In this document: in pieces, positions 19,579 through 22,134 of the stretch
How positions within the stretch are numbered: position 1 is the stretch's first letter
Layout of the letters: each line of letters begins with the position of its first letter
Assembly: GCF_005406125.1 (NCBI RefSeq)
Contig: NZ_BIXZ01000006.1
Span: forward strand, 62,001-126,000
Reading direction: 5' to 3'
DNA from: Haloarcula mannanilytica
Lineage (GTDB): Archaea > Halobacteriota > Halobacteria > Halobacteriales > Haloarculaceae
DNA: 64,000 nucleotides
Program-made: the position numbers and the translations under genes
The notes under the pieces: generated by a model
What the model saw: the letters and a program-made list of their open reading frames with translations, nothing else
Databases searched by the model: none
What the model was told of the DNA's origin: nothing

Positions 19579-21414
19579 TCACTCGACGAGGGACAACTTG
19601 CCGTCCGGCCCGACTTCACCGACTTCACCGGTGTGGTACCAGTCGTCTCGGAGTGTTTGTGAGCCAGTCTGGTCGTCATCGAGGAACCCACCGAGGACGG
19701 TCGGGCCACGGACCAGTAGCTCCCTGTTCTGGGAGACAGCGATTGCAACGCCCGGCATCGGCTCGCCGATTGCCCCCTCGACATAGGAGTCCGCCGGATT
19801 CAACGCGCCGACGCCGGTTGTTCCGACGGAGCCGTATAGCTCGGCTATCGGCACGCCCAATCCGCGGAAGAAGTACAGCAGATGGTCGTCGAGACGGCCC
19901 GTCCCTGAGAGGGCGTAGGTGAGATTCGACAGTCCGACCTCTCGCCGCAGCGGCTTGTACACGAGTCGGTCCGCGGCGCTGTATTTGAGCGGGGTCCCCC
20001 GTCCGTTGACGATTCCCTGTCCGTAGGAGGCAACCCGACCGCCGACCTTCCGTTTCATCCAGCCCATATCGCCGAGACGGTCCTGTATCGTGCCGTAGAG
20101 TTGCTGATACATCTTCGGGACGCCGACGAGCACGTCGGGTTCGATGGCTGCCAGTTGGTCGACGAACTCCTCGGCTCCGAGGTAGGCGACGGCACTTCCG
20201 GTCGCCCAGAGATAGTACGTCGAGACGCGCTGATAGATGTGTGCCAGTGGGAGCGAACAGGTCCCGGTCGCCCCGGGTCCGACGGGAAGCGCCTTGCGGA
20301 GGCTCTCTGCTGCCGCCAGGAGGTTTCGGTGTGTCAACGCGCAGCCGGCCTGCTCTGCGGGGGCGGCCACGTCGAACGCGACCGTCGCGACCTCGTTACC
20401 GTCCGCCTGGAGTCCGGGGAGCACTCGCGCCTCAGCGGTCGGTAAGGCATCGAAATCGAGCACGGTTTCGACGGTCATCGCCAGGCCCTCGGCCACGTCT
20501 CCCGCTGCCACGAGTCCGGTTGCGCCGGTCCGTTCGATTACCTGTGCCGCCCGGTCGTCGCTCGCAGACGGGTAGAGTGCGACCGGGACCAGCCCGGCGA
20601 AGTGACAGGCCAGATCGAGCACGGACCACTCGTACTGGGACTGCGCTCTGATTGCCACTCGATCTCCGGGGCGCAGTTCCGTTGAGAGGAGGCCACCCGC
20701 GACCGCCTTCGCCCGCTCCGCCATCTCTTTGAAACTCCGCTCGACGAAGCCGTCCTCACCCTGGACCAGCGCCGCGGTCCGGTCCCCGTGGTCTGACGCG
20801 ATGTCTTCGAACCAGGATGCTACTGACCCCTCCGGGACTGACAGCGAGCCGCCGTCGTAGATATCGCTGTCGAGGCGCACGCCGGCGTCCGCGCTCTGGC
20901 GGTCAACTGGAACGGGGTCTTCCGATGCCGTTCGGTCCTGATACAGTTGCCCGGGTTCGTACTCGTAGTCGTCGCTGACCTCCGTCTGGAAGTAGTCGGC
21001 GTAGTTCTGGTCCTCGTCGCCAGCGGCGATATGCGCATCGAGCCAGTCCCGGGCGACTGTCAGGACCTCCATCGTGACGTACTCCCCGTTCTCGTGTTTC
21101 TCGCGGAGTTCTCGCACCTTCCCGGCGAACTCCTCGTGCATTTCGCGGTGATTGTAGAAACAGTCGCTGCAGTCCATAGCGTAGCCGCAGTTCTGCATGA
21201 ACTCCTCCTCGTCACCGAAGTGATACTCGGTGTAGCGTTCGAGTTCGCGGAGGATATCGCCGACCTCTTCCTCGGAATGGCCCTCGTTCATCGCCGTGTG
21301 CAGGTCGTTCAGGAGTCCGAACAGGCGCTTGTGCTGCTCATCGAACCGGTCGATATTGGTGCTGTACCGCTCCTCGTCCCATTCGGCGAACTCCCCCGAC
21401 GAATTCGTTCCCAT
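19579..21414 (-). CDS. hemerythrin fused to truncated, degenerate acyl-CoA synthetase (AMP-binding) domain
   Basis: This 611-residue protein has two parts. Residues 9-145 are a bacteriohemerythrin with every diiron ligand in place: H28 (DEQH), H65 and E69 (EYHFGDEE), H89 and H93 (NHREMH), H128 and D133 (AHIAAGD). It also has extra Cys at 76, 82 and 85. After an acidic linker, residues about 195-611 align with long-chain acyl-CoA synthetases (SHGDRTAALV, GDRVAIRAQSQYEW, LTHRNLL, LPLAHIYQRV, VGVPKMYQQLY, ELYGSVGTTG). The Ser/Thr/Gly P-loop that should precede LTHRNLL is gone (TVAFDVAAPAEQAGCA), TGD is TGE, and the chain ends at KLSLVE, just where the mobile C-terminal domain should begin. The start at 21414 follows a TTCAAATACG box; an upstream ATG at 21453 is less likely. 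Oxygen- or NO-sensing by a lipid-binding pseudoenzyme is one hypothesis. Confidence 0.85.
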   Translation of the reverse strand: MGTNSSGEFAEWDEERYSTNIDRFDEQHKRLFGLLNDLHTAMNEGHSEEEVGDILRELERYTEYHFGDEEEFMQNCGYAMDCSDCFYNHREMHEEFAGKVRELREKHENGEYVTMEVLTVARDWLDAHIAAGDEDQNYADYFQTEVSDDYEYEPGQLYQDRTASEDPVPVDRQSADAGVRLDSDIYDGGSLSVPEGSVASWFEDIASDHGDRTAALVQGEDGFVERSFKEMAERAKAVAGGLLSTELRPGDRVAIRAQSQYEWSVLDLACHFAGLVPVALYPSASDDRAAQVIERTGATGLVAAGDVAEGLAMTVETVLDFDALPTAEARVLPGLQADGNEVATVAFDVAAPAEQAGCALTHRNLLAAAESLRKALPVGPGATGTCSLPLAHIYQRVSTYYLWATGSAVAYLGAEEFVDQLAAIEPDVLVGVPKMYQQLYGTIQDRLGDMGWMKRKVGGRVASYGQGIVNGRGTPLKYSAADRLVYKPLRREVGLSNLTYALSGTGRLDDHLLYFFRGLGVPIAELYGSVGTTGVGALNPADSYVEGAIGEPMPGVAIAVSQNRELLVRGPTVLGGFLDDDQTGSQTLRDDWYHTGEVGEVGPDGKLSLVE

Positions 21415-21515
21415 ACCTGGTCTGGTCACCCGTATTTGAAAAGCGACTCTCATGTTCTCACCGAATGAAAATGCGGTTTACTTTCCAAGTAGTTTCCAGT
21501 ATTACGACAGCCGGG

Positions 21516-21947
21516 ATGCGAGAATTAAGTGACGAGGCGGTTGTCGAGATCCTCACCGAGAACGGAATCGGCGTCCTGGCACTGTCCAGTCCGACGGGGA
21601 ACCCGTATCCGATCCCGGTCGCGTTCGGGTACGATCCGGCGTCGGACAGCCTCGCGTTTCACCTGTCAGAGAGCGACGGGAGTCGAAAACACCGGGCTCT
21701 GAGAGCGGACGCCAACGTCGGGTTCACCGTTTACGAAGAGACCGAGCCGCGATCTGTGTGGCGAAGCGTGATCGTTACTGGGACGTTGGTCGAGACGACT
21801 TACAGCGATGTTGAGCCGGCCCTCGCCTCGCTGGCTAGCAACACACAGTTCGCCCCCAACCCAGTCAGTTGGGACGACACATCGACGACGACACCCTACG
21901 AACTCCGAATCGATGACTGGAGCGGACGAGAGTTCCGAGTTGGATGA
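21516..21947 (+). CDS. pyridoxamine 5'-phosphate oxidase-like FMN-binding protein
   Basis: This 143-residue split-barrel protein of the PPOX/putative nitroimidazole-resistance style begins MRELSDEAVVEILTENGIGV, has GNPYPIPVAFGYD and FHLSESDGSRKHRALRADANV for flavin contacts (short segments quoted) and ends with WSGREFRVG. The ATG at 21516 lies about 35 bp after a TTTACTTT box. It is divergent from the hemerythrin-synthetase fusion across only about 100 bp, so the two may share control; both are redox-type proteins. Substrate unknown. Confidence 0.8.
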   Translation: MRELSDEAVVEILTENGIGVLALSSPTGNPYPIPVAFGYDPASDSLAFHLSESDGSRKHRALRADANVGFTVYEETEPRSVWRSVIVTGTLVETTYSDVEPALASLASNTQFAPNPVSWDDTSTTTPYELRIDDWSGREFRVG

Positions 21948-22134
21948 CGCCTGGCAGCGACTTGGGGCACCCTATCGGCCGCTGAAGCAGCCCTCAGTAC
22001 AGTATTCGCTGCCGGCGGCCCTCGTTCGGACAGTCGAAGTCACTGGAGACGCTCACATAGCAGTACGCGAGGGGCGAAAAGACGAGACTGAACTGGAAAC
22101 GCGAGCCGACCGACTGCTCCATGACGAATCTTAG
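21913..22134 (+). CDS. possible small protein overlapping the PPOX gene end
   Basis: An open frame of 73 residues starts inside the last 35 bases of the PPOX gene and ends at 22134. The peptide is charged (SSELDDAWQRLGAPYRPLKQ, EGRKDETELETRADRLL). Third-position GC is only moderate and I recognise no family, so it may be a real coupled small gene or a chance frame. The remaining 145 bp to the methyltransferase carry that gene's promoter. Confidence 0.3.
   Translation: MTGADESSELDDAWQRLGAPYRPLKQPSVQYSLPAALVRTVEVTGDAHIAVREGRKDETELETRADRLLHDES

Follow-up and report, generated by a model that had tools for sequence, protein, structure and literature searches.

A hemerythrin fused to a lidless, degenerate acyl-CoA synthetase domain is conserved in Haloarculaceae and shares its promoter region with a PPOX flavoprotein gene

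Single-domain bacteriohemerythrins such as McHr of Methylococcus (PDB 4XPX) and bhr of Methylomonas denitrificans (PMC12607906) are four-helix diiron proteins with a common ligand set, and those of methanotrophs are induced at low oxygen and during denitrification (PMC12607906). Hemerythrin also serves as one module of longer proteins, as in DcrH of Desulfovibrio (PDB 2AVK) and in MCP fusions (PMC4919030). A 2016 survey listed long sequences carrying hemerythrin and AMP-binding domains in Euryarchaeota, assigned there to Methanococci, and did not describe a loss of catalysis (PMC4919030). The Haloarcula mannanilytica protein analysed here has the diiron domain and ligand set of the bacteriohemerythrins but adds a pseudo acyl-CoA synthetase and a Cys-x5-Cys-x2-Cys loop; in contrast to DcrH and the MCP fusions, its second module is a dead ANL enzyme and not a receptor or cyclase. 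That module shares the fold and gate motif of the ANL acyl-CoA synthetases (PF00501) and is about 38–42% identical over the N-domain to intact haloarchaeal enzymes (L053, L024, L025, L026 and L054), but lacks their P-loop, hinge Lys/Arg and C-terminal lid.

The divergently transcribed neighbour resembles PPOX/Nim-like split barrels (NimA, 1W3O; Mll6688, 2HQ9; Rv1155, 1W9A/4QVB) in predicted fold and, weakly, in sequence; it differs from them in being dedicated to the fusion locus, and its cofactor binding is predicted from the model. Flavodiiron NO/O2 reductases also combine a flavin with a diiron site, a likeness by analogy only, as there is no sequence relation and two separate proteins are involved here. 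Regulators of haloarchaeal denitrification are largely unknown according to published work (PMC11218638); the denitrification (NarO) regulon of Haloferax, with the motif CGAA-N4-TTCG (PMC5746218, PMC10062603), overlaps in its kinds of target (multicopper oxidase, blue copper and haem genes) with the dyad described below, which differs in sequence and spacing. The literature on pseudoenzyme acyl-CoA synthetases and hemerythrin–synthetase fusions gave no account of this protein, nor was a description found of its lost catalysis, its PPOX partner or the operator; subscription papers, including the original NarO paper, lay outside this scope and may describe the operator. What is new here is the dedicated PPOX partner and the shared operator pattern.

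Within the window, by which we mean the whole 64,000-nucleotide stretch analysed, the fusion is a single open reading frame (Table 1). Pfam assigns Hemerythrin to residues 20–133 (E 2.7e-12; PF01814, 47.7 bits against a cut-off of 25.3) and then AMP-binding to residues 202–577 (E 4.1e-38); the 131.6 bits for PF00501 identify an N-terminal AMP-binding fold, and the NCBIfam bacteriohemerythrin model NF033749 scores 110.6 bits against a cut-off of 84. An alternative in-frame ATG at 21453, adjoining the operator, would give 624 residues; we prefer the start at 21414 because it is the one kept in all fusion orthologues. An AlphaFold model, built on a shallow alignment of 12 orthologues, has high confidence for the synthetase domain and low confidence for the hemerythrin part, and a Foldseek search of the synthetase domain model against the PDB matched ANL N-domains (E about 1e-23). 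An earlier interpretation made from the DNA letters (the sequence-only reading) had called this ORF and both domains, as the profiles confirm, and had proposed the structure prediction, according to which the second domain folds as an ANL N-terminal domain.

Table 1. Coordinates of the fusion locus and of related operator sites (window positions unless a contig or locus is named).
Feature	Coordinates	Strand	Evidence or remark
Fusion gene: bacteriohemerythrin plus lidless pseudo acyl-CoA synthetase, 611 aa	19579..21414	-	ORF (start codon 21414, stop 19579-19581); profile matches; orthologues with same start and end
Hemerythrin domain, aa 9-145, seven diiron ligands	20980..21390	-	Profiles, orthologue alignment; dN/dS 0.029 within Haloarcula
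Cys76-x5-Cys82-x2-Cys85 loop, inserted between iron ligands E69 and H89	21160..21189	-	Alignment
Variable linker, aa 146-188	20851..20979	-	Low confidence in structure model
Pseudo acyl-CoA synthetase N-domain, aa 189-611, ANL N-terminal fold	19582..20850	-	Profile, AlphaFold/Foldseek; dN/dS 0.114
Degenerate P-loop (A3) FDVAAPAEQAG, replacing YTSGTTGxPKG	20344..20376	-	Alignment
Retained gate/acyl-tunnel motif (A4) LPLAHIYQR	20227..20253	-	Alignment
A5 motif LYGSVGT (intact enzymes: YGxTE; Glu lost in Haloarcula)	19819..19839	-	Alignment
A7 motif WYHTGE (intact enzymes: TGD); protein ends 14 residues on, at the hinge	19624..19641	-	Alignment
TATA-like TTTTCAAATA	21433..21442	-	28 to 19 bp upstream of start codon; read from sequence
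Candidate operator TTTTCATTCGGTGAGAAC, consensus TTYYCA-N5-YGRGAAC	21454..21471	-	57 bp upstream of fusion start codon; shared divergent promoter
Divergent PPOX/Nim-like flavin split-barrel protein, 143 aa (start refined)	21516..21947	+	Profile, neighbourhood comparison, model
Dyad sites, own genome (G000)	C4:179944-182232, C1:277596, C1:921600, C1:1081128, C2:392550		
Dyad sites elsewhere	L110, L111, L113, L114, L115; other genera L119-L147		

The damage to the synthetase domain centres on the nucleotide site. YTSGTTGxPKG is invariant in 20 intact relatives and is replaced by FDVAAPAEQAG in the window protein, and the first Thr, the Ser and the Lys of the P-loop (T348, S349 and K356) are gone in all 19 fusion representatives compared with these relatives. 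The window protein also lacks the A5 sequence YGxTE, the A7 sequence TGD, and the hinge and lid with its catalytic Lys. Early-branching fusions still carry a GTxxHPRG remnant, the A5 Glu (as TEL) and the TGD Asp; the loss of the latter two residues came after that of the P-loop and was confined to some lineages. The loss of the P-loop noted in the sequence-only reading is thus upheld; its TGE for TGD holds in Haloarcula but not family-wide, several early-branching members having kept TGD. The Gln of LPLAHxYQR was considered as a further sign of degeneration from Glu and rejected, because Gln stands at this place in the closest intact relatives too (HVYQR or HVFQR). All fusion members stop within a few residues of the hinge that leads to the lid in intact enzymes, so that the protein does end where a lid should start, as had been claimed. 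No lid remnant or homology was found downstream of the gene in any frame, which rules out a lid that became a separate adjacent gene or was masked by a frameshift or stop codon.

The gate region lines the acyl entrance in active long-chain synthetases. Over 117 columns that are invariant in seven intact haloarchaeal enzymes, retention in the fusions was highest in the gate motif (91% for LPLAHxYQR and the residues around it) and lowest in the P-loop (33%), the remaining columns standing at 69%. Thus, loss was focused on nucleotide binding while the acyl-entrance region was kept. Other positions, such as L402 and G431, are near-invariant in the fusions only, and the gate motif is eroding in some members of a Haloarcula subclade without the PPOX gene. 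This pattern of retention in a dead domain fits a ligand- or partner-binding role, and the retained gate motif is compatible with acyl binding, as far as can be judged from alignments.

Among 392 genomes of the order, 28 have the same fusion, ending at the same hinge; all are Haloarculaceae, spread over six genera at 45–91% protein identity, a conservation not expected of a chance fusion. The lost P-loop, the truncation and the fusion itself hold throughout 30 non-redundant orthologues. Named species of Haloarcula, Halorientalis, Halosimplex and Salinibaculum carry it; none was found outside Haloarculaceae in 295 genomes sampled across the phylum. A quick tree groups the fused synthetase domains in a single clade (SH-aLRT 99) that excludes the intact relatives, and hemerythrin is fused in every genome that carries this clade. 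Read most simply, these sequences point to a single fusion and truncation that preceded the split of the genera, with the protein kept ever since. For 14 Haloarcula orthologues the Nei-Gojobori dN/dS was 0.029 in the hemerythrin domain against 0.114 in the synthetase domain; both values are well below 1, so both domains are under purifying selection. Mean identity is 75% for hemerythrin and 48% for the synthetase domain. The diiron domain joined to a synthetase pseudoenzyme is therefore conserved and not decayed, and both family-wide checks suggested by the sequence-only reading gave the same answer: the orthologues are without an intact P-loop or C-terminal domain, and no genome with this synthetase clade has the two domains apart.

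All seven diiron ligands noted at the outset (H28, H65, E69, H89, H93, H128 and D133) are indeed present in the window protein. The first six are kept in 30 of 30 non-redundant orthologues, and D133 is Asp in 27 and Asn in three early-branching members. The cysteine loop between the ligands is likewise invariant (30/30 fusion proteins); a redox or metal-binding role for it would be a guess. Several genomes of the family also contain stand-alone hemerythrins (L027, L029, L030, L031, L043 and L044) that are about 70% identical to the hemerythrin domain of the fusion and have the same Cys loop and operator, and no such 70%-identical protein that might act as an extra partner was found in the H. 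mannanilytica genome.

The PPOX protein matches PF12900 (65.1 against a cut-off of 27), and its model is a split barrel with Foldseek matches to 2FG9, 1W3O and 2HQ9, predicted to be close to Nim-like and to FAD-, FMN- and F420-binding split-barrel proteins. In Haloarcula the two genes are divergent and about 100 bp apart. PPOX is the sole neighbour of the fusion conserved across genera; no other gene, including any of lipid metabolism, is conserved beside it. Orthologues (E below 1e-25) occur in 22 of 392 genomes, always directly beside the fusion and nowhere else, which turns the divergent flavoprotein of the sequence-only reading into a conserved partner. The six fusion genomes of this sample that have no PPOX gene are G363 and one Haloarcula subclade (G002, G010, G014, G018 and G025). 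Because PPOX is absent from this subclade (loci L018, L020, L022 and L023) and from G407, which keep the fusion, it is not strictly required.

When the intergenic sequences are aligned, a dyad, TTTTCA-N5-TGRGAAC, proves common to all genera. In its consensus form TTYYCA-N5-YGRGAAC, with as many as two mismatches at some loci, it is placed 55–59 bp upstream of codon 1 of hemerythrin at nearly all fusion loci; only L082, one of two copies in G407, departs from this. We infer from the TATA-like element that the fusion promoter is leaderless. The published NarO motif CGAA-N4-TTCG is absent from the 101-bp fusion–PPOX intergenic sequence and was rejected as the operator. Counted per strand, so that a perfect dyad counts twice, the dyad has 15 matches in the H. 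mannanilytica genome against one for a reversed control, and 169 against nine in 37 family genomes. It also lies upstream of stand-alone hemerythrins, and further genes start about 59 bp from it: those for a multicopper oxidase (with a divergent HTH_20 regulator), an Htur_1727/TIGR04347 pseudo-SAM operon, AhbAB siroheme decarboxylase, a DmsR-like HTH_10 regulator, DoxX, a HAMP-MCP transducer, FeoA, NosL and blue-copper proteins. Some sites (L112 and L116–L118) have no obvious target, and no lipid-metabolism gene was recognised among the targets looked at. By its gene content the set resembles a regulon concerned with oxygen limitation, denitrification, ferrous iron and anaerobic haem, and makes a candidate for a second haloarchaeal low-oxygen regulon beside that of CGAA-N4-TTCG; this regulatory context speaks for low-oxygen/denitrification physiology more strongly than for lipid sensing. 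Of the genomes with the fusion, 27 of 30 have NirK, as do 20 of 36 without it; this comparison is uncorrected for phylogeny and, with the 14 core Haloarcula left out, falls short of significance (p = 0.12). At one site (L110:6085–7320) the TIGR04347 pseudo-radical-SAM protein, a relative of NirJ1/AhbC, lies behind the Htur_1727 gene under the same operator and is apparently another pseudoenzyme in the regulon.

The explanation that we favour, at about even confidence for the whole, is a conserved two-gene Haloarculaceae module in which an O2/NO-binding diiron protein is induced at low oxygen and the dead synthetase is a binding module. Loss of the nucleotide site and lid would date back, as a one-time event, to the ancestor of the family, the synthetase N-domain persisting from then on as a non-adenylating domain. 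From a common promoter region with one dyad-symmetric operator pattern, the fusion and its dedicated PPOX gene would be switched on when oxygen falls or nitrite/NO rises. The diiron site would bind O2 or NO, and the flavoprotein, where present, may supply or sense reducing equivalents for it, making the pair a putative two-protein analogue of a flavodiiron protein. The synthetase domain with its kept gate would act as a binding module for an acyl ligand or a protein or membrane partner, and not as a catalyst. Weighing against this account are the NirK comparison, the missing PPOX gene and eroding gate in one subclade together with the frameshifted copies of G018, the operator sites that lack an obvious target, the Asn at D133 in three members and the weakly modelled hemerythrin part.

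The sequence-only reading saw a gas- or redox-sensing domain joined to a fatty-acyl- or acyl-CoA-binding pseudoenzyme, possibly signalling lipid state. Worked out further, the protein would be an O2/NO sensor whose hemerythrin reports gas to that pseudoenzyme, which would regulate lipid or beta-oxidation enzymes, for example by pairing with an active synthetase. The high retention of the gate despite loss of the ATP site, the residues conserved thereabouts only in the fusions (L402 and G431, for example) and a synthetase fold modelled as intact with high confidence all agree with such a sensor, yet no lipid-metabolism gene is a conserved neighbour or was recognised among the operator targets looked at, and the membrane lipids of haloarchaea are isoprenoid; we regard it as rather unlikely. 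We are equally sceptical of the view that the synthetase domain has no ligand and serves an O2-storage or O2-delivery hemerythrin purely as a structural appendage, giving it a scaffold or oligomerisation domain that is stable, soluble and acidic. The far better conservation of hemerythrin in identity and dN/dS and the gate erosion in one subclade would be natural for an appendage, but the gate is retained above the domain average, new residues have become invariant, and stand-alone hemerythrins under the same operator manage without one.

A residual enzyme, with the lidless domain performing a partial reaction (binding or hydrolysis of a nucleotide or acyl-adenylate) in early-branching lineages that have TGD and the A5 Glu, is improbable: the motifs surviving there, including the GTxxHPRG remnant, are offset by the loss of T348, S349 and K356 in 19/19 representatives, by the absence of hinge and lid in all, and by the loss of A5 and A7 as well in derived lineages. 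A decayed gene or an assembly artefact, for which two near-identical, frameshifted copies in one genome (G018) might speak, has next to no probability and is ruled out for the family by independent assemblies of 28 genomes in six genera, which agree in this architecture, and by the dN/dS values; the fusion is a real conserved module. Within the favoured two-gene module, a bolder version has PPOX donating electrons to a hemerythrin diiron site tethered to the dead synthetase as an acyl-ligand-gated docking domain. This would be an O2/NO-handling system new to archaea, and the low-oxygen/NO operator in control of it, TTYYCA-N5-YGRGAAC, would be a hitherto undescribed one marking out a second denitrification regulon of haloarchaea next to that of CGAA-N4-TTCG; we think the whole distinctly doubtful in that full form.

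Hemerythrin fusions are usually read as gas sensors, and here the fused synthetase appears to have lost catalysis once and then been kept under selection, which makes it a clear-cut natural example of an ANL pseudoenzyme within a fusion. Through the dedicated flavoprotein and the shared operator, its physiology can be tested directly in Haloarcula, which is genetically tractable; the operator in addition suggests that haloarchaea have a second regulon for denitrification, iron and haem.

Two genomes carry more than one fusion gene. G407 has two diverged full-length copies (L082 and L087), with the operator at L087 only; the near-identical G018 copies (L021 and L028) are each frameshifted at a different place, and this genome is also without NirK and without the PPOX partner. 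Downstream of PPOX, positions 22028–22131 of the window hold the remnant of a SHOCT-type membrane gene broken by a frameshift; in other Haloarcula the gene is intact (95 aa), lies downstream of PPOX and has its own operator site.
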